A DNA stretch of 40,947 nucleotides, taken from the NCBI GenBank assembly GCA_003550565.1, contig PUKQ01000159.1, forward strand, positions 1 to 40,947, in the 5' to 3' direction. Positions 1-39,534 of this stretch are shown here, piece after piece; the stretch's first letter is position 1, and every line of letters starts with the position of its first letter. The position numbers and the translations under genes are program-made. The stretch comes from Syntrophomonadaceae bacterium. GTDB lineage: Bacteria > Bacillota > Dethiobacteria > DTU022 > PWGO01. The notes under the pieces were generated by a model. That model saw only the letters and a program-made list of their open reading frames with translations. It did no database searches and had not been told where the DNA came from.

Positions 1-2741
<2,741 letters not shown>

Positions 2742-2800
2742 ATTTTCTTTAGTAGTAATTAACATTAGAGAGAATATATAAATAAGAGTGGAATATATAA

Positions 2801-3688
2801 ATGGAAATTATTAATTCTTTTTTTTACAGCAAGGGGACGAAATGTGCCGGGTGGTTGTATATGCCCCAAGCTAGTTCTCTGCCGCCGCCGGTAGTGGTTA
2901 TGGCTCATGGATTTGGCGCTGAAAGTAGTTTTAAGTTACCTGCATTTGCAGAAAAGTTTGTCCAAAAAGGTATGGCAGTGTTCCTTTTTGATTACCGTAA
3001 CTTTGGGAGCAGCGAAGGTGAGCCCCGAAACCTGGTAAGCCCATCCAGGCACGTTCGGTATTGGTTGGCTGCCGTGGAGCATGTGCGAACTCTGGAAGAG
3101 GTCGATGCCGACCGAATAGCCCTTTGGGGCACTTCCTTTAGTGGTGGGCATGTTTTGGTGGTGGCGGCAATAGACAAAGGAATTTCGGCGGTTGTTTCTC
3201 AGATTCCCTTTGTGGATGGCATTGCAGCGCTTTTCTCCTATTCTCCCGGCTATATTTTTAAGGCCACTGCCAATGGACTTAGGGATCTTTTAAGCAGTAT
3301 AATCTTTAAAAAAAGGCATTACGTGAAAATAGTGGGTGAACCGAGATCATTTGCTGTTCTAAACACTCCCGAGTCACTGCCCGGTTATATGGGAATAGTC
3401 CCGGAAGAAACTTCCTGGCAAAACAGGTGCCCGGCTAAAGCTTTGCTTGAAATTCCCGCCTATCGCCCCGCGAAGTATGCCCCCCGCATCAATTGCCCGG
3501 TATTAGTAGTTTATGGTGAGAAAGATTCACTTATTGCCGCCGGGGATGTGCGGAAAACCGTTCAGCGCATAAAAGATGTAAAGGAAGCCCCTTTGCCCAC
3601 AGGGCATTTCGATATATATTACAGTGAAATGTTCACAAAAGTGGCGGAAATAGAAGCTGAATTTTTACAGGAAGAATTACAAACATAA
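2801..3688 (+). CDS. Alpha/beta hydrolase
   Basis: VVMAHGFGAE, FDYRNFGSSEGEPRN, nucleophile elbow GTSFSGG, late LVVYGEKDSLI and GHFDIY for Asp/His. Confidence 0.85.
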   Translation: MEIINSFFYSKGTKCAGWLYMPQASSLPPPVVVMAHGFGAESSFKLPAFAEKFVQKGMAVFLFDYRNFGSSEGEPRNLVSPSRHVRYWLAAVEHVRTLEEVDADRIALWGTSFSGGHVLVVAAIDKGISAVVSQIPFVDGIAALFSYSPGYIFKATANGLRDLLSSIIFKKRHYVKIVGEPRSFAVLNTPESLPGYMGIVPEETSWQNRCPAKALLEIPAYRPAKYAPRINCPVLVVYGEKDSLIAAGDVRKTVQRIKDVKEAPLPTGHFDIYYSEMFTKVAEIEAEFLQEELQT

Positions 3689-3725
3689 TTGACGAGGACA
3701 TGTACCTGAGAAAGGGGAGTAAAAG

Positions 3726-4541
3726 ATGCTTAATAAAAGGGAGCATTTTTTTGAGAGCAAAGTAGCAGTAATAACAGGTGCCAGTTCCGGCATTGGTAAA
3801 GCTTTGGCCTTTGATTTGACGGAATCGGGATGCAAAGTAGTGATGGTGGCCCGGCATAGGAAGAATTTAGAAGAGATAGCCGCAGAAATGTATACGGAAA
3901 AAACGATGGTTTTGCCTGCTGATGTCACCGATTATACCGAGGTCTCTTCCATGGTAGATCAAGTAATAAAGGAATGGGGAAGAATTGACATATTAATAAA
4001 CTGTGCCGGCACTTTCAAAGCGGGAGGCTTGGTTTCTCTTCCATTGGAAACCATGCATGAAACCATGGAAGTAAATTATAAGGGAACGGTGAATTGCGTT
4101 AAAGCGTCTTTGCCTTATATGGTGGAACAAGGCAGTGGATCTATCGTATTGCTTTCTTCGCTTGCCGGTAGATTGGCTTTTCCGGGATGTTCTGCTTATG
4201 GGGCTTCTAAATTTGCCCTCTATGGTTTTGCCAATATAGTGAGGCCGGAATTAAAAAAACATGGTATTCACATGATGGCCGTATATCCGTCTTTTGTAGA
4301 CTCCCCCCTGGTAGAAGGGCATATAGAAAGGGTTAAAAAATCGTTTTTTTTCCGCATCAGCCGTGATTTTTCGCCGCAAAAAGTTTCCCGAGCCATCATG
4401 AAAGGACTGATCAAAAAGAAAAGGGAAATGGTGCTACCTCCCACGCTCGGCTGGGCCGCGGCGATTTACGGATTATGCCCCCGCCCGGTTGAATATTTTA
4501 TAGGTAAATTTCATGGGGGTTGGCCGGATCCACTGGAATAA
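3726..4541 (+). CDS. SDR family oxidoreductase
   Basis: TGASSGIGKA Rossmann motif, INCAG, SGSIVLLSSLAG, YGASK catalytic Tyr/Lys. Confidence 0.92.
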   Translation: MLNKREHFFESKVAVITGASSGIGKALAFDLTESGCKVVMVARHRKNLEEIAAEMYTEKTMVLPADVTDYTEVSSMVDQVIKEWGRIDILINCAGTFKAGGLVSLPLETMHETMEVNYKGTVNCVKASLPYMVEQGSGSIVLLSSLAGRLAFPGCSAYGASKFALYGFANIVRPELKKHGIHMMAVYPSFVDSPLVEGHIERVKKSFFFRISRDFSPQKVSRAIMKGLIKKKREMVLPPTLGWAAAIYGLCPRPVEYFIGKFHGGWPDPLE

Positions 4542-4686
4542 AAGTTTTTTTCGGAAGTGATATTTCTGTCTTTCATGTTTATCTTTATTTCTTTCTAAAT
4601 CTTTATAAGATAATTTAAAACACTTTTGCCCTATAATTTTTTAGGGAAAGGTAGTCTGTTTTTGCATAATTACTTAATGAGTGAAC

Positions 4687-4720
4687 TCCTGTTTTTATTT
4701 ATAAGTTAATAAAAGCAGGA
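4687..4720. promoter_or_regulatory. 13-bp stem hairpin upstream of HAD gene
   Basis: TCCTGTTTTTATT-tataagtt-AATAAAAGCAGGA, one G-U pair; not followed by a T-run. Confidence 0.45.
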
Positions 4721-4796
4721 AATCGGAAAACGCTCATAGAATGATAAACTATTAACTAGATAACACAAATACAAATGTGGAGATATAATTATAATT

Positions 4797-5477
4797 ATGA
4801 TAAAAGCAGTATTGTTTGATCTAGATGGGACTCTTATAGATACATTGCACTTGTATTTGCAAACATATTTTAAAACCATGGAGCACTTTCCTGATGTAGA
4901 ATTACTTGATATGAAGCAAATAGAGGCGTTGAAGCCTACTTCGGAATACCGGGCCCTGGAAAAATTGGTGGGCGAAGAATTGGCAGAAAAAGCATTTAAT
5001 ATTTTTTTAGATAATTATAGTCAATTGCACGCGGAATTATTTCAAGGAGCTTTTCCCGGGGTTATTTCCATGCTGGAAATACTACGGGAAAAGGGTTTTT
5101 TGCTGGGTATAGTAACCGGTAAGAGTAGACCTGCCTGGGAGATTACCAGCGCTCAAGTAAATTTGGGTGAATTTGATGTGGTGATAACCGATAATGAGGT
5201 GATCCACCCCAAGCCTCATCCTGATGGGTTGGTTGAAGCCATGCGATTACTGGGAATACCTCTGACAGAAGCGCAGAAAGTGGTTTATGTGGGTGATTCT
5301 ATAAGCGATCTGCTTGCGGCAAGGGAAGCAGGAGTTAAATTTGCGGCGGCGGTATGGTCTTACTGGGTTAAAACCCATGAATTTTTATCATGGTTGGAAA
5401 ATGAAAGAGAAAATTTTGCCATTTTGGAAGTTTCGGCTGATTTGATTGATTATCTTGATAACGAACCGGTTAGCTAA
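4797..5477 (+). CDS. HAD-superfamily hydrolase (PpaX/Gph-like)
   Basis: LFDLDGTLIDT motif I, GIVTGKSR motif II, KPHPDG and YVGDSISDLLAAREAG. Confidence 0.9.
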   Translation: MIKAVLFDLDGTLIDTLHLYLQTYFKTMEHFPDVELLDMKQIEALKPTSEYRALEKLVGEELAEKAFNIFLDNYSQLHAELFQGAFPGVISMLEILREKGFLLGIVTGKSRPAWEITSAQVNLGEFDVVITDNEVIHPKPHPDGLVEAMRLLGIPLTEAQKVVYVGDSISDLLAAREAGVKFAAAVWSYWVKTHEFLSWLENERENFAILEVSADLIDYLDNEPVS

Positions 5478-5514
5478 TTAATTAGATTTTTAAATAAAAA
5501 GGGGAGGCAATTTT

Positions 5515-5958
5515 ATGAAGGAAAATGGTAATTCCGCTGCTTTTACAAAAGAGAAAGAAAAAGAAGAAAAGGGGATAAAAAAGCTAAATTTAAGAGAACG
5601 TGATGCAAGTCTGCTTTGTTATGTTTTGGGTTGGGTTAGCGGTCTATTTTTCCTGTTTATGGAGAAGGAAAATAAATTAATTCGTTTCCATGCCATGCAG
5701 TCGGTTATGACTTTTGGGCTTATTACCATAATATTTCTGGTTTTTGCGGGTATAGATTGGATCATTGTTTTAACCCAGGCCTGGGAATTACCCGGTTTTT
5801 TCGTACTTTTGGATATAATTGATATTATAATTACACTTCTATATTTTGTTACTTTTATTCTCTGGGTGCTTTTAATGTATAAGAGCTACCAGGGGGATAA
5901 AGTTAAACTACCCGTGATTGGCGATGCCGCTGAGGAAAGGATTGAAGATTTAACCTAA
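5515..5958 (+). CDS. DUF4870-like membrane protein
   Basis: LCYVLGWVSGLFFLFMEKENKLIRFHAMQSVM pattern plus hydrophobic helices; SD ggggagg. Confidence 0.75.
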   Translation: MKENGNSAAFTKEKEKEEKGIKKLNLRERDASLLCYVLGWVSGLFFLFMEKENKLIRFHAMQSVMTFGLITIIFLVFAGIDWIIVLTQAWELPGFFVLLDIIDIIITLLYFVTFILWVLLMYKSYQGDKVKLPVIGDAAEERIEDLT

Positions 5959-6068
5959 ACATTTGAAGGAGGTTTTTTTGCCGTTTACTCGAGTATAAAA
6001 AAATATCCTTAAATAAGCACGTAATTATCTAATTATAGGAGCATAATTGAGATAATAAAGGAGGAACC

Positions 6069-7031
6069 ATGAATACTAACTATCACCATGTATTTAATGG
6101 AGCAGGATGGATAATGGTATTGAAGCAGTCCCATGACCCGGAAAGGCATAATCCTGAACTGAAGCCCATAGGTATTATACCGGGATATGGAATGAGTGCT
6201 TATATTTTTAGCTATCATCCCTGGGATGTTTCTATGGAAGAGTATTTAGTGAAGCAAGGTTTTGAAGTTTGGTCAATTAATTTTCGCAATCAGGGCGATT
6301 CACGCTGTAATGGAGGTTGCATAGAGTACACTATAGAGGATATTGTATATAATGATTTAAAAGTGGCGGTTGATCATATTTTAGAGATGACCAAAAGCCA
6401 AAGGGATAAAGTTGATCTTATCGGGGGCTCCCTGGGGGGTGCTTATGCATATTTATATGCCGCCTTAATTAATCCTGATAAGGTGGGAGCACTGGTAGGA
6501 ATTGGAGCTCCTTTCAAAATGGTTAATGTTCACCCGGCATTTGTAATGGTAACTTACTGGCCTAAACTTTTGAAACAGGTAAAATTGAACCATACACGTC
6601 AATTGGCTAGATTAGCATTGCCGCTGGTATTAAGAATGCCCCGTTTAATTTCTATATATTTGCATCCCGAAATAGTTGATACCAAGGATCCGGAATCGCT
6701 TTTAAAAGCAATAGAAAATCCTAACTGTCTTCTCAATTACCAGCTTGCTTACTGGGTGAAAAATGAGGAATTATTTATAGAGGGTAAAAGCTTTACCAGT
6801 TTAATGCAAAAGGTGAGCAACCCTATATTGTGTGTTCTTTCCAATGCGGATGGCATTGTTTCCAGAGAAAATGCCCTGGCTGTGCTTGATGCTGCTTCCA
6901 GTGAGGTAAAAGATTATTTTGTCGCCGGAGATGAAAACATTAAGATGGCTCATGCTGATCTCTTTGTTTCCGACTATTGCAAACAAATGGTTTTCGAACC
7001 CATGACAAATTGGCTGTTGCAGCAAAACTAA
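6069..7031 (+). CDS. Alpha/beta hydrolase (PhaC-related fold with Ser nucleophile)
   Basis: IPGYGMSAYIF, GFEVWSINFRNQGDS, GGSLGGAYAYL elbow, late Asp (SNADGIVS) and His (AHADLF); SD aaaggagg. Confidence 0.8.
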   Translation: MNTNYHHVFNGAGWIMVLKQSHDPERHNPELKPIGIIPGYGMSAYIFSYHPWDVSMEEYLVKQGFEVWSINFRNQGDSRCNGGCIEYTIEDIVYNDLKVAVDHILEMTKSQRDKVDLIGGSLGGAYAYLYAALINPDKVGALVGIGAPFKMVNVHPAFVMVTYWPKLLKQVKLNHTRQLARLALPLVLRMPRLISIYLHPEIVDTKDPESLLKAIENPNCLLNYQLAYWVKNEELFIEGKSFTSLMQKVSNPILCVLSNADGIVSRENALAVLDAASSEVKDYFVAGDENIKMAHADLFVSDYCKQMVFEPMTNWLLQQN

Positions 7032-7044
7032 GTTAGGGGTGGCT

Positions 7045-8064
7045 TTACTTTTCGAAAATATCCCGGCACTCTTGCAGCATTTCCCGTATGGGAAGCTTAT
7101 AAGGGCACTTTTCTTCGCATTCGCCGCAGTTTTTACAAGCTGAAGCTTTAATTTCTTGGGAATCATAACGGTCTTGAGCCCATTCATAAAGTTTATATCG
7201 CTTCCAGTAGCCGAGCATTAAAAAGCAAAAAGTAATGTTAATGCCTTCCGGACAGGGAAGACAGTATTCACAGCGGCGGCAAAAGCGAGTGCCCAGTTTT
7301 TGTGCTTCTTTCAGCAGATTTTCCTTTTCTTCTTTTGTCGGTGGAGGCATTTCTGCGGCCCTGGTATTTTTTAATACTTCTTCTTCTTTTTGCATGCCCG
7401 GGATAATAGTGGAAACGGGGTAGCTCAGCAGGTCTCTAACCGCCGTCTCGTTATTGCTTAAAGCCCCTCCACAAAGAGGCTTCATAATAATGGTTCCCAC
7501 TTCCATCTTTTGAGCCAAAGGCAAAAGTTCTTCCATAGCTTCCGGTTCCACTACATTAAAAGGAAATTGGACGGTATCAAAGCTTTCTCTTTGCAGGGCT
7601 TGAACCGCTATTTCAGGATTATGTGAAGTTATGCCGATATACCTTACTTTACCTTCTTTTTGGGCTTCTTTTAGAGCTTTTACACAGTCATTTTCGAAAA
7701 TCAGGTTTAATTCCTCTGAATTACTGACGTTGTGCAGTTGATAAAGGTCTATAAAGTCTGTTTGTAAATTATTCAAGCTTTCATCAATATTTTTTTTAAC
7801 CCTTTCGTAGCTGCGGATGCGTACCTTTGTGGCTAAAATAATATTTTCCCTGGGAATTCCGGCAAGCGCTTTCCCTATTTTGATTTCACTATCTGTATAG
7901 CTGCGGGCGGAATCGAAAAAATTAATGCCTTGTTCATAAGCTTTTTTTACCACAGAAACTGCTTCCGAAAGTGACAGGCGTTGGATAGGAATCCCTCCAA
8001 ATCCCACTGCCGATACTTTAAGGCCTGTTTTGCCGAGTTTCCTGAACTGCATGCTGCGAATCAC
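7045..8064 (-). CDS. Aldo/keto reductase with C-terminal 4Fe-4S domain
   Basis: FRKLGKTGLKVSAVGFGG, FDSARSYTDSE, DLYQLHNV; C-terminal CRRCEYCLPC and CKNCGECEEKCPY. Start may be the Met at 8052. Confidence 0.9.
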   Translation of the reverse strand: MIRSMQFRKLGKTGLKVSAVGFGGIPIQRLSLSEAVSVVKKAYEQGINFFDSARSYTDSEIKIGKALAGIPRENIILATKVRIRSYERVKKNIDESLNNLQTDFIDLYQLHNVSNSEELNLIFENDCVKALKEAQKEGKVRYIGITSHNPEIAVQALQRESFDTVQFPFNVVEPEAMEELLPLAQKMEVGTIIMKPLCGGALSNNETAVRDLLSYPVSTIIPGMQKEEEVLKNTRAAEMPPPTKEEKENLLKEAQKLGTRFCRRCEYCLPCPEGINITFCFLMLGYWKRYKLYEWAQDRYDSQEIKASACKNCGECEEKCPYKLPIREMLQECRDIFEK

Positions 8065-8443
8065 TCCTTCACCCTGTTCATGGCTTCGTTTTTGTTGCCG
8101 CCTGTTCCCCTGTGAAACTTAAGGGTTATATTTGCCTTACTTTATAATATTACGATTAAGAGTTCCTCTAATCCTTCTTGTTTTGAGTATTATCTCGAAG
8201 GATAGTGCTTGCAGTGTTATTATAAATAAAAGGGATGTTTTATTCCTTGAAGAATTTAATAAACACTGGAAAATGAAAATTTAGATATTTGTTTCGGAAA
8301 GTAAGCGCCATATAAGCTTTTAAGAACAGCTAAAACCCGGGACACCCTATATTTGCTGAAGCGATTTTGGGGAAAAGATAAATATTTATGAAGGCAGAAT
8401 TCTCTTGTTGCCGGTGCAAGGAAGAAAGGAGGAAACTTTTTTA

Positions 8444-9628
8444 ATGATTTTGAATGATATTAGAGTGCTCGACCTCACCAAGGTGCTTGCCGGGCCTTTT
8501 TGTGCTATGCAATTGGCTGATTTTGGCGCGGAAGTGATTAAAGTAGAAAATCCTCATACGGGAGGAGATGATTCCAGGCAATTTGGCCCTCATAGCAATG
8601 ATACCAGCGTTTACTTCATGAGTATAAACCGTAATAAAAAAAGTATTGCCCTTGACCTGAAATCTTCTGCCGGGCAGCAATTATTTAAAGATCTTGTGTG
8701 TGAGGCGGATGTAGTGATGGAAAATTTTCGCGCGGGGGTGATGGATGATTTGGGATTGGGTTATGAAGAGTTAAAAAAAATAAATCCGGGTATTGTTTAT
8801 GCTTCTTCTTCGGGATTCGGACACAGTGGCCCTTATCGGGATCGTCCGGCTTACGATGCTGTTATTCAGGGAATGGGCGGTATTATGAGTGTAACCGGTG
8901 AAAAAGGGGGGAGTCCTACCAGGGTGGGAGTTTCTATAGGGGATCTTGCTGCAGGGCTTTATCTGGCCTATGGGATTGTCCTGGCCCTTTTACATCGGCA
9001 AAAGACCGGCGAAGGACAGAAAGTTGATGTAGCCATGCTTGATTGCCAGGTTGCTCTGCTGGAAAATCATATTTCCCGTTACTTGACTGCTGGAGAGGTT
9101 CCTGAGCCCATCGGAAACCGACATCCTTCCCTGGCCCCGTTTGGTTCTTTTCGAACGTGTGACGGTTATATAATAATTGCGGCAGGTAATGATGGGCTTT
9201 GGAAGGAGCTTTGCCGGGTTCTCGGTTGTCCGGGATGGGCTGAAGATCCACGTTTTGCCACTAATTCGTTAAGAGTAGAAAATTACAGCGCATTAGAGGA
9301 GATCCTGGAGCAAAGGCTAATGGAAAAGACCGGCAGGGAGTGGATAGATATATTAGTAAAATCTGGCATCCCGTGTGGCCCTATCAATAGCATTCCCGAT
9401 CTGGTTAAAGATCCTCAGGTGCAAGCGCGGGACATGATTGTAGAGATTGAGAATCCTAATGGCGGTCAGGTTAGTGTTTCCGGCGTGCCGGTTAAATTAT
9501 CGCATACACCCGGTGATATTACTAAAACTGCTCCTTCCCTGGGAGAAGATACTTATGAGGTTTTGCAAACTTTGCTGGGTTTATCTGACAAAGAAATTAA
9601 TCGTTTGAAAGAAGAGGGAATTGTTTAA
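8444..9628 (+). CDS. CoA transferase family III (CaiB/BaiF)
   Basis: RVLDLTKVLAGPFCAMQLADFGAEVIKVE, GxGDDSR-type loop, NRNKKSIALDLK, RPAYDAVIQGMGGIMSVTG (conserved Asp). ATG at 8444 follows aggaagaaaggaggaaac; track start 8405 is an unlikely TTG. Confidence 0.93.
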   Translation: MILNDIRVLDLTKVLAGPFCAMQLADFGAEVIKVENPHTGGDDSRQFGPHSNDTSVYFMSINRNKKSIALDLKSSAGQQLFKDLVCEADVVMENFRAGVMDDLGLGYEELKKINPGIVYASSSGFGHSGPYRDRPAYDAVIQGMGGIMSVTGEKGGSPTRVGVSIGDLAAGLYLAYGIVLALLHRQKTGEGQKVDVAMLDCQVALLENHISRYLTAGEVPEPIGNRHPSLAPFGSFRTCDGYIIIAAGNDGLWKELCRVLGCPGWAEDPRFATNSLRVENYSALEEILEQRLMEKTGREWIDILVKSGIPCGPINSIPDLVKDPQVQARDMIVEIENPNGGQVSVSGVPVKLSHTPGDITKTAPSLGEDTYEVLQTLLGLSDKEINRLKEEGIV

Positions 9629-9734
9629 GGCGCAACAGAAGTGTAAAAAAAGCCTTCCATAAAATTAAGATAAATAAATTCATTTTTAGATTATTTATCC
9701 GGGGGAATACTGTTAATTGTGGTAATTTTCCTGC

Positions 9735-9740
9735 TATAAT
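9735..9740 (+). promoter_or_regulatory. Possible extended -10 promoter
   Basis: TGCTATAAT; no strong -35, consistent only with an extended -10. Confidence 0.3.
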
Positions 9741-9866
9741 GTATTTAGCATTTTAATGAAGAACATTCTGGTTTTGTTTATAGAGTAAAGGCAATTTAGA
9801 TTAAATGTTTTTTTAGAGGCAGACCTATTATGCTTGGGGTTAGTTTTCTCAAATGAGGTGAAGACT

Positions 9867-10742
9867 GTGCAGGAAGTTTATTTAGAGACAAAACCTGTGG
9901 CGGTGAAGGCATTTTTTGAGCCTCGGGAAGATTTACAAACAAGAATGGGAGTTTATCAAGGGATTAGCTACTGTGATGCGGTAAGAAGAGCGGCGCAAGA
10001 TGAAGAATTACTTGTTTTAGCTGATTCCATATTAACTTGCCAGTGGTCTCCGGTGGTATTGGGTTTAAAAAAACCGGCAAATAATTTTGAAAAAAGGTTA
10101 GCTCCCCGTATGGAAGGAGTTTGGGGATATTACCTTTCTTCACTGCTGTCTTTTTCTAAAAGAGGCCTGGAACCTGATATCGTAATTATAAGGGGGAGTC
10201 CGCAACTATTAAGGCTTATTCTTTCTCGGATAGGATGGCATAATAGTGCCCTGAATTTAGCCGGAGAACTGGACAAAAGTGCTCTGGGGATTCTCGGTAA
10301 CCATCGTTTTACTTTGAAATCTACCTTAACCATAAACTTCAACAAATTATTTTATTTCCTCAGCAAGAAAGAATGGTGGATGAAGTTTACCGAGTCCATA
10401 TTTCGTTATCCTTTTGCCTGTAATGTTTTTGATCGAATTATTAACGCTTTCATGGCCGATATGTCTATTTGCCGCAATTCTACCGTTATTCCTTACCAAA
10501 CAGGCCTTGTTAATGTTTCTCACTTTTGCGCCGGGGGTATTGGATGGGGTTTAAACCGGCCCGATTATATGACTTCAGGGTTTCCTTACTCTTTGTTCAA
10601 TGTTCTTAGGGAGCAAAATACTGTAAAGTGGCAGGTCAGCAGAAAAGAAATTTTTGAGAGGCCATTGATGCCGGAAAGAAGTATTGGTTGTCGTTTAGAA
10701 TGCTGTTGTGATCATTCTGAAACCGGGAAAAATAAGAAATAG
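9867..10742 (+). CDS. DUF169-family protein
   Basis: ETKPVAVKAFFE, GISYCDAVRRAAQDEELLVLADSILTCQWSPVVLGL, LEPDIVIIRGSPQLLRLIL resemble DUF169. GTG start at 9867 after TGAGGTGA. Confidence 0.6.
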   Translation: MQEVYLETKPVAVKAFFEPREDLQTRMGVYQGISYCDAVRRAAQDEELLVLADSILTCQWSPVVLGLKKPANNFEKRLAPRMEGVWGYYLSSLLSFSKRGLEPDIVIIRGSPQLLRLILSRIGWHNSALNLAGELDKSALGILGNHRFTLKSTLTINFNKLFYFLSKKEWWMKFTESIFRYPFACNVFDRIINAFMADMSICRNSTVIPYQTGLVNVSHFCAGGIGWGLNRPDYMTSGFPYSLFNVLREQNTVKWQVSRKEIFERPLMPERSIGCRLECCCDHSETGKNKK

Positions 10743-10757
10743 AAAGGAAAAACCCCA

Positions 10758-11969
10758 ATGGCAAATAGTAATAAAAAAGGCGGTATCAGGCTGGAAGACA
10801 TGTTTGCTTCGGAGAAATGCGATTATTGTGGGGAATGCCTGGCAAAATGTGATTGGATTAAATGTAACGCAGAAGAAGGAAGCGATTTTATTGTTCGCCT
10901 GGTAAAGGGGGAGCATGTTCCGGAAGTAATGAATGTATGTACGAACTGCATGAATTGTGACAGTTACTGCCCTCAGGGTGCTCGACCTTACAACCTTATT
11001 ATTTATCGCTGGTATGAGCGTTATCAAAGAGAAGGAATACCGCCCGTTTTTAAAAGAGCGCTCCCCTTTCACGGTGAGGTAAATGTATGGTCTAAATTGG
11101 AGAAGTGGCTGAGCCGGAGAGAACGCAAAAATTTGCATAGATGGAAAAATACTTCCGGTGCTGAAGAAATGCTTTTCCTGGGTTGTAATCAGCATTATGA
11201 TCCTTATATTGTGGATTCCCGATTATTTGCCGGAATCCCCGTTTTCAGTGATCGCAGTTATTGTTGCGGTGAGCCTGCTTTCCGATTGGGGCTTTTAGAT
11301 GAGGCCCGGCGGTGTGCCATCAACCTACAGGAAAAGCTTAAAGGCTTGGGTGTGAAACGTCTCCTGGTTTTTTGCCCCGCATGCTACAATACACTTACTA
11401 ATCTTATTCCCAATTCTTTCGGTATTAATTATGAAGTAGAGCTTGTGCCGATAGTTTCATGGCTAAAAGAACGTTTGGAAGGTGGATCTATTCCTATCAA
11501 AAAATCACTTAATGTGAGCGTGAGTATACAGGACAGTTGCCATGGCAGCAGTTTGGGAAAAGAATATTTACAGGAAACCAGAGATGTGCTGACTATGATT
11601 GGTGCTTCTGTCAAGGAGATGGAGCATAGTTGGGAAAATATGCGTTGCTGTGGTTTAGGCTATGCCGCTACCCGTTACAGTTTAGTGGATGTGGTTTTCA
11701 AAGGAGTAAAACGATTGCGGGAAACCGGGCAGACAGGATCTGAATTAACAACTACCTATTGCAATGGCTGCTATTTTACCATGAATATGATGCGCATGCT
11801 TTCTCCCGGCTCACCACCCGTATATCACTTTGTAGAGCTCATCCAAATGGCCATGGGGGAAAAACCGGTGCGAAAGATTAACAGCCGCCGGTATGCTATT
11901 GTGCTTGCTGCCTTAGAAGCGGTTAAATTTGAGTTGTTAAAGCCGGGAAAGAAAAAAATCGAGGTATAG
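10758..11969 (+). CDS. (Fe-S)-binding protein with CCG domains (HdrD/GlpC/GlcF-like)
   Basis: Two ferredoxin motifs (CDYCGECLAKC, CTNCMNCDSYCPQ) and CCG elements (YCCGEP, FCPACYN, DSCHGSS, RCCGLG, YCNGCY). Confidence 0.85.
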   Translation: MANSNKKGGIRLEDMFASEKCDYCGECLAKCDWIKCNAEEGSDFIVRLVKGEHVPEVMNVCTNCMNCDSYCPQGARPYNLIIYRWYERYQREGIPPVFKRALPFHGEVNVWSKLEKWLSRRERKNLHRWKNTSGAEEMLFLGCNQHYDPYIVDSRLFAGIPVFSDRSYCCGEPAFRLGLLDEARRCAINLQEKLKGLGVKRLLVFCPACYNTLTNLIPNSFGINYEVELVPIVSWLKERLEGGSIPIKKSLNVSVSIQDSCHGSSLGKEYLQETRDVLTMIGASVKEMEHSWENMRCCGLGYAATRYSLVDVVFKGVKRLRETGQTGSELTTTYCNGCYFTMNMMRMLSPGSPPVYHFVELIQMAMGEKPVRKINSRRYAIVLAALEAVKFELLKPGKKKIEV

Positions 11970-12059: not shown

Positions 12060-12848
12060 ATGAGTGAAGGCAAAATAACGGTAGAGGTAGAGGGTCATGT
12101 TTTATTGATAGGGATAAAGAGGACAGATAAATTAAATGCTTTTGATGTAGAAATGTACCGGGACCTTGCTCGGGCCTACGGAAAGCTTCACCATACTCGA
12201 GATTTACGGTGTGGTTTGCTTTTTGCCCATGGGGAACATTTTACTGCCGGTTTGGAACTTATAAAGTGGGCGGGCAGTTTTGGAGAAGGGAATTTTCCGG
12301 AGCTCCCGGAAGGCTCCATAGATCCCATGGGCCTGGATGAAGACAACAGGCTGGCAAAACCCATGGTAATGGCAGCTCAGGGGATATGCTTTACCATTGG
12401 TTTAGAGCTTTTATTGGCTACAGATGTGCGTGTGGCTGCTAAAGATGTGCGTTTTGGTCAGATTGAGGTCAAGAGAGGGATATATCCGGTAGGAGGGGCT
12501 ACTGTCCGCTTGTTTGAGGAGGTGGGATGGGGAAACGCCATGCGTTATTTATTGACTGGCGATGAAATTCATGCCGAAGAAGCTCTCCGCCTGGGGCTTG
12601 TCCAGGAAATAACCGAGCCCGGCGAACAATACGGAAGAGCGCTGGAACTAGCAAATAGAATAGCGAAACAGGCTCCCCTTGCCGTGCAAACTTCTTTGCT
12701 GTCGGCACGAAGAGCCAGGGTAGATGGAACCAGAAAGGCTATATCGAGACTTCTTCCCGATCTCATGCCTATAATGCAAAGCCAGGACGCGCTTGAGGGC
12801 TTGCAATCTTTTAAAGAAAGGAGAGAGGCAGATTTTAAAGGAGAGTAA
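12060..12848 (+). CDS. Enoyl-CoA hydratase/isomerase (crotonase) family
   Basis: KLNAFDVEM, FTAGLEL, TIGLELLLATDVRVAAKDVRFGQIEVKRGIYPVGGATVRL; two Glu 20 residues apart match the hydratase pair. Confidence 0.9.
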   Translation: MSEGKITVEVEGHVLLIGIKRTDKLNAFDVEMYRDLARAYGKLHHTRDLRCGLLFAHGEHFTAGLELIKWAGSFGEGNFPELPEGSIDPMGLDEDNRLAKPMVMAAQGICFTIGLELLLATDVRVAAKDVRFGQIEVKRGIYPVGGATVRLFEEVGWGNAMRYLLTGDEIHAEEALRLGLVQEITEPGEQYGRALELANRIAKQAPLAVQTSLLSARRARVDGTRKAISRLLPDLMPIMQSQDALEGLQSFKERREADFKGE

Positions 12849-13214: not shown

Positions 13215-14375
13215 ATGAATAAAGTAGCTATAGTGGGGATAGGTTATACTAGTTTCAGATCTACATCGCAGGACGTATCTTACAGGGAAATGATCTTTGA
13301 AGCTGCCAAAAAATGTTATGAAGATGCAGGTGGGGTTCACCCTCAAAGCATCGATGCATTTGTAGCTTCTTCGGAAGATTTCATGGAAGGGGTCAGTATT
13401 GCGGACGAGTATGTGCCCGATCAGCTGGGAGCTGTTCTCAAACCGGTACAGAGCATAGCGGGGGATAGTATGCAGGGTATTGCCTCTGCTATGATGCAAA
13501 TTCAAACCGGAGAAATGGACCTGGTTGCTGCTTCAGCATTTTCCAAAGCTTCGAATGTTTTGAATCCCAACAACGTGGTTTCTTATGCTTGTGATCCAAT
13601 CTATGTGAGGCCCCTGGACGAAAACCCAAATATTATTGCCGGTATGGAAATGAACCGTTATCTTTATGAAACCGGAACAACAAGGGAACAATGCGCGGAA
13701 GTAGTAGTGAAAAATAAATATAACGGTTTATTCAACCCATCGGCAGTTTATGGGGCCAAGATAGAATTGGAAGATGTGCTTTATGCCCATGAAATTTTTT
13801 CGCCTTTGAGTGAATTGGATGTAAGTCAGGATGCTGACGGAGCTATTGTTTTACTTTTGGCTTCGGAAAATAAAGCCCATAAATATACCCAAAACCCTAT
13901 TTGGATAAAAGGTATGGGTTGGGCTACGGACACGCCGAACCTCGATTATCGGGAAAAGGGCTGGGGAGATGCGTTTTATGCTACCCTTGCTGCCCAGAAA
14001 GCTTATAGTATGGCCGGTATTAATGCTCCCTATAAAGAGATTGATTTTGCTGAAATTGACGATACTTTTTCCTATAAAGAACTCCAACACATAGAAGCGC
14101 TGAATATTTGTGGGCGCGGAGAAGCCGGAAGCTTGTTTAAACAGGGATTCTTCAGCAAAGAAGGTGAGTTTCCGGTTAATGTTTCCGGTGGAAACCTGGG
14201 TGTAGGTTATCTTCATGAAGCTAACGGATTGCAAAAGTTTATGGAAGTAGTCCTGCAGTTGAGGGGTGAAGCAGGCAAACGGCAGTTAAATAAGGTAAAA
14301 ACAGGATTAGCTTTTGCCTGGCGTGGAATTCCTACTGCAACGGGAATTGTCGCTGTTTTAAGCAATGACGGGTAG
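13215..14375 (+). CDS. Thiolase-fold protein (SCP-x/Ltp2-like), predicted non-thiolytic
   Basis: VAIVGIGYTSF, EAAKKCYEDAG, SGGNLGVG, QLRGEAGKRQ. Cys-motif position reads IAGDSMQG and GHP position reads GYLH. Confidence 0.85.
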   Translation: MNKVAIVGIGYTSFRSTSQDVSYREMIFEAAKKCYEDAGGVHPQSIDAFVASSEDFMEGVSIADEYVPDQLGAVLKPVQSIAGDSMQGIASAMMQIQTGEMDLVAASAFSKASNVLNPNNVVSYACDPIYVRPLDENPNIIAGMEMNRYLYETGTTREQCAEVVVKNKYNGLFNPSAVYGAKIELEDVLYAHEIFSPLSELDVSQDADGAIVLLLASENKAHKYTQNPIWIKGMGWATDTPNLDYREKGWGDAFYATLAAQKAYSMAGINAPYKEIDFAEIDDTFSYKELQHIEALNICGRGEAGSLFKQGFFSKEGEFPVNVSGGNLGVGYLHEANGLQKFMEVVLQLRGEAGKRQLNKVKTGLAFAWRGIPTATGIVAVLSNDG

Positions 14376-14434
14376 AGTATTTATCAAATATTTTAGCTTT
14401 TTATCCAATCAAATAAAACGGAGGGTTGTGTATC

Positions 14435-15592
14435 ATGAGAAAAGTTGGTGTAATAGGGGCGGGAATGACCAATTTCGTCCGAAGAGCTCAGGAAACACCG
14501 AAAGAGTTGTCCTACGAAGCTACAAAGGCTGCCCTGGATAGTTGTGAGATGAACTTGGAAGATATAGAATGTGTGGCGCACGGTACTGCACCGGACGCTT
14601 TTGACGGAATTCACCAAAAAGGGGAATACCTTGCTGACGGTAGCGGCGGTTGGAATAAACCAACTATGCGTGTTTTTGTTGGCGGCGCTACCGGGGTTCA
14701 TGCTCTTATTCATGGCTGGTATCATGTTGCTTCCGGCATGTTTGACACCTGCCTGGTGGTCTGTGAAGAGAAAATGTCCAGTGCCATGCCGCATGCTCAG
14801 GGTTTTTTCCTTACCATTTTCGATCATACCACGGAAAGGGCATTGGAGCCTACTTTGCTCTGGATTTTTGCCATGGAAATGAACAGGTATATGCAGCGCT
14901 ATGGCTATACCAAAGAAGACATGGCGCGGGTTGCTGTTAAGAATAAAAACCAGGGTAGAAAACACCCCGCTTCCCAATTTAAGGAAGAAGTTACCCTGGA
15001 AGAAGTTTTAAATTCGGAAGTTATGGCTTACCCGGTGAGCAGGCTTGATGTAAGCCCTGTTTCTGACGGAGCTGCGGCGGTGGTGCTGGCTGCAGAAAAC
15101 GTGGCCCGGCAGGTAACAGAACAACCGGTATGGATAGAAGGAGTAGGATGGTGCCTGGATACCGCTTACTGGGCTACCAAAGACTTATCATATCCGCGTT
15201 ATCTGGAAAAGGCTTCGAAGATGGCTTATGATATGGCGGGCATTACCGAACCCGCTAAACAAATTAATATTGCGGAGCCTTACGATCCTTTCGATTATAA
15301 AGCTTTGCATCACATGGAAGGCCTTCAATTGTCACCGCGGGGCAAAACAGTGGAGTTGCTGAAAGACGGACATTTTGATCAAGATGGCAACCTTCCTATG
15401 TGTCCTTCAGGAGGCCTCCTGGGTGTAGGTAATCCCATTGCCGCTGCCGGTACTATGAAGGTTTGTGAGCTTTTCTGGCAGTTAAGGGGAGAAGCAGGCG
15501 AAAGGCAAGTTCCCGGAAATCCGAAATATGGTGTGTGTCAAGCTTGGGGAGATTTGATGCAGGTTAGTTCGGTAGCCGTAATGGGTGTTTAA
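14435..15592 (+). CDS. Thiolase-fold protein (SCP-x/Ltp2-like), second paralogue, predicted non-canonical
   Basis: VGVIGAGMTNF, YEATKAALDSC, SGGLLGVGNPIAAAG, QLRGEAGERQ. Cys-motif position reads VGGATG. ATG at 14435 fits the ggagg better than GTG at 14426. Confidence 0.85.
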   Translation: MRKVGVIGAGMTNFVRRAQETPKELSYEATKAALDSCEMNLEDIECVAHGTAPDAFDGIHQKGEYLADGSGGWNKPTMRVFVGGATGVHALIHGWYHVASGMFDTCLVVCEEKMSSAMPHAQGFFLTIFDHTTERALEPTLLWIFAMEMNRYMQRYGYTKEDMARVAVKNKNQGRKHPASQFKEEVTLEEVLNSEVMAYPVSRLDVSPVSDGAAAVVLAAENVARQVTEQPVWIEGVGWCLDTAYWATKDLSYPRYLEKASKMAYDMAGITEPAKQINIAEPYDPFDYKALHHMEGLQLSPRGKTVELLKDGHFDQDGNLPMCPSGGLLGVGNPIAAAGTMKVCELFWQLRGEAGERQVPGNPKYGVCQAWGDLMQVSSVAVMGV

Positions 15593-15642: not shown

Positions 15643-16158
15643 ATGGAGCATACTAATTTTATCAGAGGCGGTACAGCCTTATCGGCTAAAGATGTAGAGC
15701 AAAATAAGGCGTTTTCGGTAGAAGATGAGCTGGCATGTAGATATGCCTGGGATACAGGAGTAGGTGTTGGAAGATATCTTGAAGAACTTAAGGAAGGTAA
15801 TATTATCGGTAAAAAATGCCGCAAATGTCACCGGATTATGCTGCCCGCGCGTCTCTTTTGTGAATTATGCTTTCGGCCTACCGATGAATGGGTATACGTT
15901 AAAGACACCGGAGTGGTGAACACTTTTTCCATTTGCCAGGTCAATTGGGATGCCAGCCGGGTTGAGCCCGGGGAAAAACCTCATTTGCCCGCAGTTATTG
16001 AGATAGATGGTGCTTCGAAGGGTATGGGGATTTTGCATCGTTTAGGTGAAGTGGATCCGAAAGATATCAAAATTGGTATGAAAGTAAAAGCAGTTTGGAA
16101 GCCTAAAAGACAGCGGATAGGCTCTATAACCGATATTAATTATTTCAAACCTTACTAA
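15643..16158 (+). CDS. Zn-ribbon/OB-fold DUF35 protein
   Basis: CRKCHRIMLPARLFCELC zinc ribbon, DTGVVNTFSI, IGMKVKAVWKPKRQRIGSITDI OB region. Confidence 0.88.
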   Translation: MEHTNFIRGGTALSAKDVEQNKAFSVEDELACRYAWDTGVGVGRYLEELKEGNIIGKKCRKCHRIMLPARLFCELCFRPTDEWVYVKDTGVVNTFSICQVNWDASRVEPGEKPHLPAVIEIDGASKGMGILHRLGEVDPKDIKIGMKVKAVWKPKRQRIGSITDINYFKPY

Positions 16159-16674: not shown

Positions 16675-16753
16675 ATGAAATGCCAACCGGTTCTTTTTAT
16701 AGAAGAGGGAATATTGTCAGTATATAATAAAAGAATTTTCTCCTGAGATTGCC

Positions 16754-16798
16754 TAAATTAGCGGTGGGAAGAAAATTCTTACCGCTAATTTATATTTT
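16754..16798 (+). terminator. Long hairpin after DUF35 genes, probable terminator or attenuator
   Basis: TAAATTAGCGGTGGGAA-gaaaa-TTCTTACCGCTAATTTA, 17-bp stem with two G-U pairs, then tatttt. Confidence 0.6.
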
Positions 16799-16829
16799 AG
16801 GGGCTTTTCTTACGAGAAAGGGGAATATA

Positions 16830-17822
16830 ATGTACACTGGTTTTGTGATAGCTGTATTATTAATGATATTTCTTGTTTTCTTCATAAATAAAATGAGTAT
16901 GCAAAGAGCAGGCAAAATCAGGGCAGAAGAAGAAATTGAAAACATGCATTTTGCAAAACTTTCCCCTTTCGGGATAGTAAAAAATCTTTCTATTCTCCCC
17001 CTGGTAGATTATTATGCAGAGAGGGATGACTTAAAAACCGAACCGGGAGTTTCTTTCCTGATCAAGGCTGACAATACTACCATACTTATGGATGTTGGGC
17101 GGAACATGAAATCCGAACATCCTTCCCCTTTGTTAACAAATATGGAGTTATTAGGCGTAAAAATTGAAGACATAGATATCCTGTTTTTTAGCCATCTGCA
17201 TCTGGATCACGTGGGTGGGATGGAAGAACAAAAACAACGCACTTTTAGTATTTCCAATGGAGAGGTAAAATTAGGAGAGATACCTGCTTATGCCCCTGCA
17301 GATTTAGCACCTTCATCCTGGAATTCGGGGCCGAAGGTTAATGTGATCAAGGAGCCCACCGTGTTAGAACCCGGCATAGCAAGTATAGGAGCTCATCCCC
17401 GCTATTTATTTATGATGGGTTACACCCTGGAGCACAGCCTGGCAATTAATGTAAAGGGAAAGGGTATTGTTTTGATTGTAGGTTGTGGGCATCAAAAAGT
17501 GGAAAGAATAATAGAAAGAACCAGAGAAATATTCGATGAGCCTATATATGGTATAATCGGAGGCTTGCATTATCCAATTTATGGAGGCAGGCTCATGAAA
17601 GGGCCCTTTGATCTGCAGTATTTAACCGCTTCCGATACCCCCCCCTGGGATGGTCTAAAGGAAGAAGACGTAAAAAATGCCCTGGAAACAATAAAACAAG
17701 TAAATCCCCAAATAATTGCGCTATCTCCTCATGACAGTTCTGACTGGGCTCTTGAACATTTCAGGCAAGCTTTCCAAGAAAAATACATTGATATTAAGGT
17801 AGGCAAGGAAATTATCATTTAA
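16830..17822 (+). CDS. MBL-fold metallohydrolase with N-terminal TM segment
   Basis: FFSHLHLDHVGGMEE (HxHxDH), VGCGHQKVE, GGLHYP. ATG at 16830 after gaaaggggaatata; track start 16749 lies in the hairpin. Confidence 0.85.
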   Translation: MYTGFVIAVLLMIFLVFFINKMSMQRAGKIRAEEEIENMHFAKLSPFGIVKNLSILPLVDYYAERDDLKTEPGVSFLIKADNTTILMDVGRNMKSEHPSPLLTNMELLGVKIEDIDILFFSHLHLDHVGGMEEQKQRTFSISNGEVKLGEIPAYAPADLAPSSWNSGPKVNVIKEPTVLEPGIASIGAHPRYLFMMGYTLEHSLAINVKGKGIVLIVGCGHQKVERIIERTREIFDEPIYGIIGGLHYPIYGGRLMKGPFDLQYLTASDTPPWDGLKEEDVKNALETIKQVNPQIIALSPHDSSDWALEHFRQAFQEKYIDIKVGKEIII

Positions 17823-20638: not shown

Positions 20639-21142
20639 ATGGGAAGGATAGACGACTTGCAAAATATGATTAAGGAACGCCGCGTTGGTTTTCAAATAGA
20701 AGAACTTATGAGCGGTGAACATGAATTTGAAACAGGCATGGGACCACAGGGGAAGTACCCCTTTGAATTTAAGGTAAAGTGGGGTCCTAAAAATGTTTCC
20801 GCATGGCTTAATCCCAAAAGTGAAGAATTTTTAACCCAGCCACTTTGGGGGATTGTAACCGCAGGTGGGTTATGTTATGATGCGCCTTGCGAAGGCACTC
20901 TTGAAATTGCTTATTTCAGCGAGCGAAAGATTCGATATACTTTTGATTTTGAAGCGTATGCCAAGGAATATCATTTTGTTGGAGAAAAAGTAAATATTTT
21001 ACCGTGGAACCTTCCGGTTTCACATACTACCTGCTTCGGGACCCTAACTGAAAAAGATACCGGGAAATTGGTATCACGGTCTGTAACTTACTTCAAGTGG
21101 TGGACGGTTCCATTTTTTATAGCGAGTTTTCGCCTGGCATAA
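20639..21142 (+). CDS. Hypothetical protein
   Basis: Complete ORF with SD (aggaagg), co-directional between SDR and rubredoxin-like gene; no family recognised. Confidence 0.7.
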   Translation: MGRIDDLQNMIKERRVGFQIEELMSGEHEFETGMGPQGKYPFEFKVKWGPKNVSAWLNPKSEEFLTQPLWGIVTAGGLCYDAPCEGTLEIAYFSERKIRYTFDFEAYAKEYHFVGEKVNILPWNLPVSHTTCFGTLTEKDTGKLVSRSVTYFKWWTVPFFIASFRLA

Positions 21143-37721: not shown

Positions 37722-38294
37722 ATGTGCAAAATGTCATTATCTTATGGAACCGACGAATGGGAAAAGGAATATCAAAAATTAGCAGAAGAAAGGTTAGCAT
37801 CTCAGCCTAAACCTTACATCATGGGAACGCCTGAATGGGTGGCCACTTTTGAAAAAAAGATTAAAGCGGATGATAAATATAAAAAATTAGCTAAAAAATG
37901 GGAAGGGTCTGTAGTTATACACATATTAGCCAAACCTGATCTGGGCCTTGAGGAAGATCTTTACCTCTACCTGGACCTTTGGCACGGTGACTGCCGTTTT
38001 GTGAGGCTGGTTCCCCGGGAAGTTGGGGTAAAGGGAAATTATGTTTTGACTGGAGAATTTGAAAGGTGGAAATCTGTCATGAAAGGAGATTTGGATCCAA
38101 TTAAGGGATTGATGCAAGGCAAGATAAAATTAAAAGGATCACTTACCACTATGGTTCGTTACGTAAAAGCAGCAAGCCGATTGGTAAGTATCGCCACTGA
38201 AATAGATACCAAGTTTCCCGATGAACTTGATGCAGAAGAGTTGGAGGAATTTAAAAATTGGCTTCGGGAAATAAGGCCAAAATATGGAATTTGA
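37722..38294 (+). CDS. SCP2 sterol-binding-like protein
   Basis: TGEFERWKSVMKGDLDPIKGLMQGKIKLKGSLTTMVRYVKAASRLV; SD aaaggag. Confidence 0.65.
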   Translation: MCKMSLSYGTDEWEKEYQKLAEERLASQPKPYIMGTPEWVATFEKKIKADDKYKKLAKKWEGSVVIHILAKPDLGLEEDLYLYLDLWHGDCRFVRLVPREVGVKGNYVLTGEFERWKSVMKGDLDPIKGLMQGKIKLKGSLTTMVRYVKAASRLVSIATEIDTKFPDELDAEELEEFKNWLREIRPKYGI

Positions 38295-38370
38295 TCACTG
38301 CCGTTGAAACATTATTCATAATTTATTTGAAGCAATTATGTCCTTAATGTACGTAAAGGGAGAACAGTGG

Positions 38371-39534
38371 ATGTTTTATGATGATACTTTGTCTTTTGAT
38401 TATTACAATCCCACTAGATTAGTATTTGGAAATAAAGCCATTCAAGATACAGGGGCGGAAATTGATAGTCTGGGAGGAAAGCGGGTTCTAATTGTAACGG
38501 ACAAAGGGGTAAGGGAAGCCGGATTGACAGATCCTGTTGAAAAGGCTTTGGGTAATAGGTGCGTGGGCATTTATGATGGTTGTATACAAGATTCGGGTGT
38601 TCATATTGTTGATGAAGGGGCGGCAATTGCCAGGGAAAAAGAGGTTGATGCCCTGGTAAGTGTAGGTGGCGGCAGTGTTATTGATACAGCTAAGTGTATG
38701 GCTGTTCTTATTACCGAAGGTGGAAAATTGGATGATTATGAAGGATTTCAGCTTTTAGATAGGCTTCAGGCACCCCATGTGGCTATTCCCACTACCGCGG
38801 GAACGGGGAGTGAAGCTACATATGTAGCTATAGTTAAGGATTGGGAACATAGCGTTAAAAAAATGATTGTTGACTCTAATATTATTCCGCGCGTAGCCAT
38901 ACTGGATCCGATGATGACGGTTAATCTCCCTCCGGATCTTACTGCAACCACCGGTATGGATGCTTTTACCCATGGAGTGGAAGCAATTCACTCTCTTCAG
39001 GCGGCGCCGATTTCTGATGCTATGGCTCTTCACGCTATTCGCTTAATAAAAAAGAATCTGCCGGATTGCGTCAATAACGGTAAAGATGTTGGGTCACGCG
39101 GTCAGCAGTTGATTGCTTCTTATATGGCCGGGGTGGCATTCGGAAATGCCCAGGTGGGGCTGGTGCATGCTCTGGCACACTCTCTGGGAGCTCTTTTCGG
39201 AATTCCGCATGGCAAGGCCAACAGTATTGTTCTGCCTCACGTAATGAAGTTTAATCTTGATAAATGTCCCGAAAAGTATGCCCTTATTGCCGAGGCTTTG
39301 GGCCTTGAAATCGCTAATATGAGCAGTATGGAAGCCGCTAGGTTAGCAGTGGAGGATATACAAGAGATGACAAAATCACTGGGTATCCCTCAAACTCTGC
39401 GGGAGTGTGAGGTTCCGCGGGATAAATTGGAAGAAGTAGCATTGCAATCTCTCTCTGACGGTTCTATCGTTTACAACCCTAAATTTGCTATGGATATAGA
39501 TTTGGTGCTTCCAGTGCTTGAAGAAGCTTGGTAA
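38371..39534 (+). CDS. Iron-containing alcohol dehydrogenase
   Basis: NPTRLVFGNKAI, VSVGGGSVIDTAKCMA, PTTAGTGSEAT, GMDAFTHGVEA, GLVHALAHSLGALFGIPHGKANSIVLPHVM. ATG at 38371 has SD agggaga. Confidence 0.95.
   Translation: MFYDDTLSFDYYNPTRLVFGNKAIQDTGAEIDSLGGKRVLIVTDKGVREAGLTDPVEKALGNRCVGIYDGCIQDSGVHIVDEGAAIAREKEVDALVSVGGGSVIDTAKCMAVLITEGGKLDDYEGFQLLDRLQAPHVAIPTTAGTGSEATYVAIVKDWEHSVKKMIVDSNIIPRVAILDPMMTVNLPPDLTATTGMDAFTHGVEAIHSLQAAPISDAMALHAIRLIKKNLPDCVNNGKDVGSRGQQLIASYMAGVAFGNAQVGLVHALAHSLGALFGIPHGKANSIVLPHVMKFNLDKCPEKYALIAEALGLEIANMSSMEAARLAVEDIQEMTKSLGIPQTLRECEVPRDKLEEVALQSLSDGSIVYNPKFAMDIDLVLPVLEEAW

Follow-up and report, generated by a model that had tools for sequence, protein, structure and literature searches.

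The 40,947-nucleotide window studied here, one entire contig (C227) from a 2.65 Mb MAG of a Syntrophomonadaceae bacterium, raises the question of what two tandem thiolase-fold proteins might do when both lack the thiolase cysteine and histidine. An initial, sequence-only reading had proposed that they, along with a DUF35 partner, could be an anaerobic Firmicute counterpart of the steroid side-chain retro-aldolase Ltp2-ChsH2. The genes concerned are as follows:

8405-9628, + strand: class III (CaiB-type) CoA-transferase; its position suggests a possible role in acid activation
9834-11969, + strand: DUF169 protein and Fe-S/CCG protein, flanked by the CoA-transferase and hydratase genes; electron transfer is possible
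12060-12848, + strand: enoyl-CoA hydratase/isomerase (crotonase, PRK06563), closely upstream of P1; a candidate pathway member by position only
13215-14375, + strand: P1, thiolase-fold protein of 386 aa; Ala82 for the Cys and Tyr332 for the GHP His; predicted noncatalytic or accessory half (A-type)
14435-15592, + strand: P2, thiolase-fold protein; Gly84 (in GG-x-TG), Asn333 for the GHP His, and Tyr283 (in EPYDPF); predicted catalytic half (B-type)
15643-16158, + strand: D1, DUF35 protein; zinc ribbon (Cys59/62/73/76) and OB fold; always adjoins P2
16177-16674, + strand: D2, second DUF35 protein; zinc-ribbon cysteines retained; evolves faster than D1

The expected DUF35 partner is indeed present, in the form of two genes, giving a unit of four. 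Both D1 and D2 combine the DUF35 zinc ribbon, with its four cysteines conserved, and an OB fold beside a thiolase-fold gene. The start of P2 is likelier to be the ATG at 14435 than the TTG at 14426, with a Shine-Dalgarno-like GGAGGG run about 10 bases upstream of the ATG.

Two thiolase-fold proteins without the catalytic cysteine and histidine

Profiles, sequence similarity to solved thiolases, and predicted structure all identify P1 and P2 as full-length thiolase-fold proteins. Pfam Thiolase_C_1 matches P1 at 4e-27 and P2 at 5e-27, and the AlphaFold2 models (pLDDT of 90.3 and 85.8, respectively) superimpose on solved thiolases with TM scores of ~0.8-0.93, although none of the nearest solved structures exceeds ~30% identity to either protein. 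The best structural match of P1 is a solved DUF35-bridged thiolase that differs in having the catalytic Cys and His. P2 passes the NCBIfam model PRK06065 (605 bits versus a cutoff of 455), whereas P1 falls short of its nearest, PRK06066 (468 bits versus a cutoff of 516); both models bear the label “thiolase domain-containing protein,” a name without a function.

In a 51-row alignment including Ltp2, thiolases, and other solved structures, the nucleophile-Cys column is occupied by Ala82 in P1 and Gly84 in P2 and the GHP-His column by Tyr332 and Asn333, such that a Cys/His pair is placed in neither active site, just as had been read from the sequence. Three family members encoded elsewhere in the same genome (contigs C102, C81, and C35) retain the Cys, the HDxx motif, and GHP, which argues that the alignment is sound. 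Contigs C202 and C6 of this genome carry further Cys-less tandems, each accompanied by DUF35 genes; taken together with the intact members, these indicate that the loss is a trait of a paired subfamily rather than an alignment or sequencing error. The residues at the two columns thus bear out the view that neither protein is fit for Cys-based thiolysis, and we regard this as near certain from the sequences. Thiolase activity through a different cysteine is hardly credible: P2 Cys110 (75/81 orthologues) and P1 Cys160 (70/74) are well conserved, but both are distant from the nucleophile loop in sequence, and the His partner is missing. In MAGs, the genes of this unit will nevertheless probably be labeled acetyl-CoA acetyltransferase or thiolase and added to the tally of beta-oxidation genes, even though their sequences rule out Cys-based thiolysis.

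A conserved four-gene cassette and its neighbors

A P2-profile scan of 85,462 species genomes recovered 254 relatives, of which the best 80 were retained. Among these best 80, P1 lies directly 5' of P2 in 75 loci, that is, wherever the contig is long enough, while D1 follows P2 in 77 and D2 in 73; the order P1-P2-D1-D2 is constant in all loci with enough contig, and the gaps fall at contig ends. The four products are very likely to form a hetero-complex, as we predict from the genes. The hosts among the best 80 relatives include Bacillota MAGs (Syntrophomonadaceae, Dethiobacter, and Symbiobacterium) but also those of Chloroflexota, Deltaproteobacteria, Planctomycetota, Acidobacteria, Armatimonadetes, WOR-3, and others. 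Hence, the notion of a specifically Firmicute system gives way to that of a cassette found in many phyla. Its closest relatives in this set come from Syntrophomonadaceae and Dethiobacter MAGs (P2 identity of 79-86%), and its distribution within the phylum is patchy, given that 7 of 399 sampled same-phylum genomes reach E 1e-70 or better. The conservation of the four proteins as a unit across many uncultured and mostly anaerobic lineages points to a widespread step in acyl-CoA metabolism.

The neighborhood was surveyed in the 41 loci, from the same best 80 of 254 relatives, with at least 3 kb on both sides of the cassette. An acyl-CoA dehydrogenase (ACAD) occurs within 5 kb in 21 of them; within the same distance are the methylmalonyl-CoA mutase large subunit (six loci) and CoA-transferase subunits A (six) and B (four). 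In one closed genome, the genes form a single run, ACAD-P1-P2-D1-D2-acyl-CoA ligase-CoA-transferase A/B, with the ligase named from its sequence by eye. Across phyla, in the best 80 relatives, no hydratase recurs consistently in the cassette operon, nor does a Cys-bearing thiolase belong to the cassette. A gene resembling cyclic 2,3-diphosphoglycerate synthetase (by eye) lies closely upstream of the cassette in locus L107 (7238-8722) and in 11 other loci, several of them from Chloroflexota.

In the window itself, the crotonase could be a source of 3-hydroxyacyl-CoA; the two Glu residues expected of a hydratase are presumably present, judging by eye. At 37722-39534, an SCP2-domain gene is followed by an iron alcohol dehydrogenase, and the same pair of genes is found beside the C6 cassette (L026, 11979-13746), the two dehydrogenases being 38% identical; the dehydrogenase could handle an aldehyde product. 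The MBL-fold hydrolase 3' of D2 (16749-17822) was considered as a pathway member and rejected, there being no match at E 1e-3 between it and the MBL gene that follows DUF35 on a Simplicispira plasmid. Two further observations concern the DUF169 protein, which occupies 9834-10742 and is flanked by the CoA-transferase and the Fe-S/CCG protein, and a 167-aa ORF at 20639-21142, downstream of an SDR gene, without a Pfam or NCBIfam match.

Parallels to this arrangement are offered by loci of the Ltp2 type. The one on the Sphingopyxis plasmid pRW412a (L111) has the order CaiB, hydratase, DUF35, and aldolase, and the release of propionyl-CoA via a retro-aldolase has been reported for the ibuprofen pathway encoded there (PMC9195938). 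The Rhodococcus locus reads CaiB, MaoC, MaoC, DUF35, and Ltp2. By analogy, the similar gene order of the window would support a route in which an acid is activated and its chain is cut.

Residue conservation and comparison with retro-aldolases

The two thiolase-fold proteins differ in conservation. In each of 75 loci compared, P2 is closer to its window counterpart than P1 is (mean identity of 71% versus 56%), and the same holds for D1 relative to D2 in 68 of 68. Position 84 of P2 is Gly and position 333 is Asn in 81/81 orthologues, with Tyr283 equally invariant (81/81); also unvarying in this set are Gly83, Thr86, Gly87, the rest of EPYDPF (281-286), Tyr288, Lys289, His292, His293, and the remainder of GVGNPI (330-335). 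When the own-genome paralogues at 31-36% identity are added, a few dozen of the 385 P2 positions remain invariant, including Gly83, Gly84, Tyr283, and Asn333. In P1, by contrast, position 82 drifts among Thr, Pro, Ala, Gly, and Ser, with Cys in 1 of the 72 rows that have a letter there, and position 332 in 76 sequences is His (34), Tyr (17), Asn (9), Leu (4), Asp (3), Ser (3), or another residue. P1 is nonetheless not decaying: all 76 of its sequences share Glu280, Asp283, Lys288, and Arg246. These patterns suggest that P2 is likely the working half, and we infer that P2 and D1 make up the catalytic half of the complex and P1 and D2 the supporting half.

This bears directly on the active-site Tyr that had been taken as the Ltp2-like mark of the pair. 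The P1 segment GYLHEANG does align with AYIHGMNG of Ltp2, which places Tyr332 at the position of Ltp2 Tyr344 and could suggest that P1 is the aldolase. We consider this very unlikely: given its variability among orthologues, Tyr332 is probably incidental, the position of the base Tyr is Asp282 in P1, and the Gly-Gly loop is absent. The equivalent of the base is instead Tyr283, which sits in P2. The earlier suggestion that the His-to-Asn paralogue P2 is either catalytic or structural can accordingly be narrowed, since the invariant Tyr283 and the Gly-Gly loop of the Sal/Ltp2 type favor a catalytic over a structural role.

The closest mechanistic analogues are the characterized aldolases themselves. 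Ltp2 uses Tyr294 (YDHF) as the base and Tyr344 as the acid (PMC12329534), positions that we verified by counting in the 6ok1 sequence; in Sal, base and acid are Tyr302 (YDCY) and Cys304, and Cys304 mutants are dead (PMC12329534). Sal Gly89, in the place of the thiolase Cys, contacts the hydroxyl through its backbone (PMC12329534). In P2, Gly84 occupies the column of Sal Gly89, and Tyr283 that of both Sal Tyr302 and Ltp2 Tyr294; Pro285 falls on Sal Cys304 and Ltp2 His296, while Asn333 falls on Sal Gln352 and Ltp2 Tyr344. Thus, two features of the aldolases, Gly84 and Tyr283, are found in P2 and the third is not: both known general acids (Sal Cys304 and Ltp2 Tyr344) are replaced, by the invariant Pro285 and Asn333.

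At the level of the complexes, the Sal-Shy bile-acid side-chain aldolase (PDB 9myr; PMC12329534) resembles P2 in its thiolase fold, its DUF35 partner (Shy), the Gly for Cys in the GG loop, and the base Tyr in YDxx. It differs in belonging to a separate clade, in having a Sal dimer at its center with a copy of one and the same DUF35 protein on either side, and in the residues equivalent to Pro285 and Asn333. The steroid aldolase Ltp2-ChsH2 (PDB 6ok1) likewise shares the absence of the Cys, the GG loop, the base Tyr, and a DUF35 partner but has YDHF rather than YDPF, His296 and Tyr344 at the two acid-site positions, only one kind of thiolase-fold subunit, and a different phylogenetic position. 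The pairing itself has a closer parallel in the PhlABC Friedel-Crafts acylase (PDB 5m3k), where two thiolase-superfamily proteins, one of them inactive, associate with DUF35 (PMC2954200); there, however, PhlC is described as the active member and the DUF35 protein is single, whereas P1 and P2 both lack the Cys. Finally, the benzoylsuccinyl-CoA thiolase BbsAB (PDB 7pxp) is a thiolase-fold enzyme with a DUF35 partner (PMC12329534) and a 132-bit match to P2, but its BbsB subunit retains the Cys, HDAF, and GHP. Searches of open-licence literature for the cassette itself yielded only studies of Ltp2, Sal, Phl, archaeal DUF35, and similar systems.

PhlA, the inactive member of PhlABC, also raises the possibility that neither thiolase-fold protein is an enzyme and that the complex binds CoA as a scaffold or carrier serving adjacent acyl-CoA enzymes. 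The lack of both Cys and His in P1 and P2 would agree with this, as would the Cys-less partner of an active thiolase known from PhlABC (PMC2954200). However, the polar site of P2 is constant across many phyla and in the 31-36% identical paralogues, and the cassette provides no Cys-bearing thiolase to partner, making a pure scaffold unlikely.

The proposed reaction and the ancestry of the cassette

Taking these findings together, we propose that P1-P2-D1-D2 is a hetero-oligomeric, Cys-less acyl-CoA C-C lyase in which P2 catalyzes the retro-aldol cleavage of a 3-hydroxyacyl-CoA, a reading to which we assign a probability of roughly one-half. A P1-P2 heterodimer would be clamped by the two DUF35 subunits, with the working site in P2. 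Since P2 has no Cys, neither an acyl-enzyme nor thiolysis would be involved. Instead, Tyr283 would take the proton of the beta-hydroxyl group while the Gly83-Gly84 loop, in place of the Cys, would hold the oxyanion, and the alpha-beta C-C bond would be cut to yield acetyl- or propionyl-CoA and an aldehyde or ketone. With Asn333 standing where Ltp2 has its catalytic-acid Tyr and Sal has Gln, the enolate would have to receive its proton from Tyr283 itself, a bound water, or another residue. P1, the faster-evolving partner, would shape the channel for CoA or the substrate. Such a system could allow its hosts to shorten chains that are not oxidizable to a beta-keto acid, for instance those with a branched or tertiary beta-carbon.

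The constant cassette order, the invariant P2 site, its residue matches to Sal and Ltp2, the ACAD and CoA-transferase neighbors, and the similar Ltp2-type loci speak for retro-aldol cleavage, while the absence of both known acids, the placement of P2 outside the Ltp2/Sal clade, and the lack of a fixed hydratase speak against it. An alternative that we hold to be less probable is another Cys-independent reaction of a CoA thioester (synthetic aldol addition, decarboxylation, hydration, or hydrolysis) at the same Tyr/Gly-Gly/Asn site. It would account for an invariant site without the known aldolase acid and for an operon that often has an acyl-CoA dehydrogenase but no hydratase; moreover, TbSLP, with its related YDCF site, shows weak malonyl-CoA decarboxylation only (PMC12329534). 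Against it, Gly at the Cys site combined with a base Tyr has been described, among characterized members, for retro-aldolases (PMC12329534), and the neighboring CoA-transferases, ligase, ACAD, and methylmalonyl-CoA mutase look catabolic.

The cassette varies the thiolase-fold/DUF35 theme without belonging to the Ltp2 or Sal families. In a maximum-likelihood tree of the 51 rows, a branch with support of 100/99 divides the canonical thiolases with Ltp2, Sal, and 4u4e (22 rows) from the paired Cys-less proteins, P1 and P2 included, and P1 and P2 each fall in a supported group; an origin of P2 within the Ltp2/Sal clade is accordingly not supported. Hence, the proposed kinship with Ltp2-ChsH2 survives as mechanistic analogy, shared with Sal, and not as common clade membership, and nothing that we found points to steroids. 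In this unrooted tree, a further branch (98/92) splits the canonical-type rows from all the others, which would allow a single loss of the Cys at the base of the noncanonical rows if the root lies among canonical thiolases. A smaller tree, if rooted on canonical thiolases, would permit a sister relationship between Ltp2 and the Cys-less set. The trees leave the ancestry undecided, being unrooted and, in the smaller one, having Ltp2 on a long branch.

The Gly-Tyr-Asn set of P2 is shared by the B-type paralogues of C202, C6, and a Simplicispira plasmid (L115), making it a recurring third version of the site. We tentatively suggest, with somewhat less confidence than for retro-aldol cleavage as such, that it represents a third active-site arrangement by which the thiolase fold supports CoA-dependent C-C bond chemistry. 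The heterodimer would be obligate and joined by two DUF35 proteins, and its site would combine a base Tyr, an Asn, and an oxyanion loop of Gly-Gly while having neither the Ltp2 nor the Sal acid; spread through anaerobic bacteria, it would perform the cleaving step of an acid-degradation route. P2 also provides a natural comparison with Ltp2 and Sal regarding the residue that protonates the enolate.

Several of these related sets have contexts of their own. On contig C202, the Cys-less pair and its DUF35 genes span 2-6809 (L025). On C6, they occupy 6600-9926 (L026), preceded by a fatty-acyl ligase, a BKACE-like beta-keto-acid cleavage enzyme, and, directly upstream, an acyl-CoA dehydrogenase. 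The Simplicispira suum plasmid (L115, 2508-11748) combines in one cluster an A/B-type Cys-less pair, DUF35, an Ltp2-like protein, a second DUF35, a canonical-looking thiolase, SDRs, and an iron alcohol dehydrogenase. A Halococcus plasmid (L113, 5001-6170) encodes a DUF35-linked thiolase-fold protein with Gly for Cys that keeps HDAF and GHP; like ST0096 (PDB 4yzo), it has lost the Cys while retaining the GHP His, and it is a separate kind of Cys loss.
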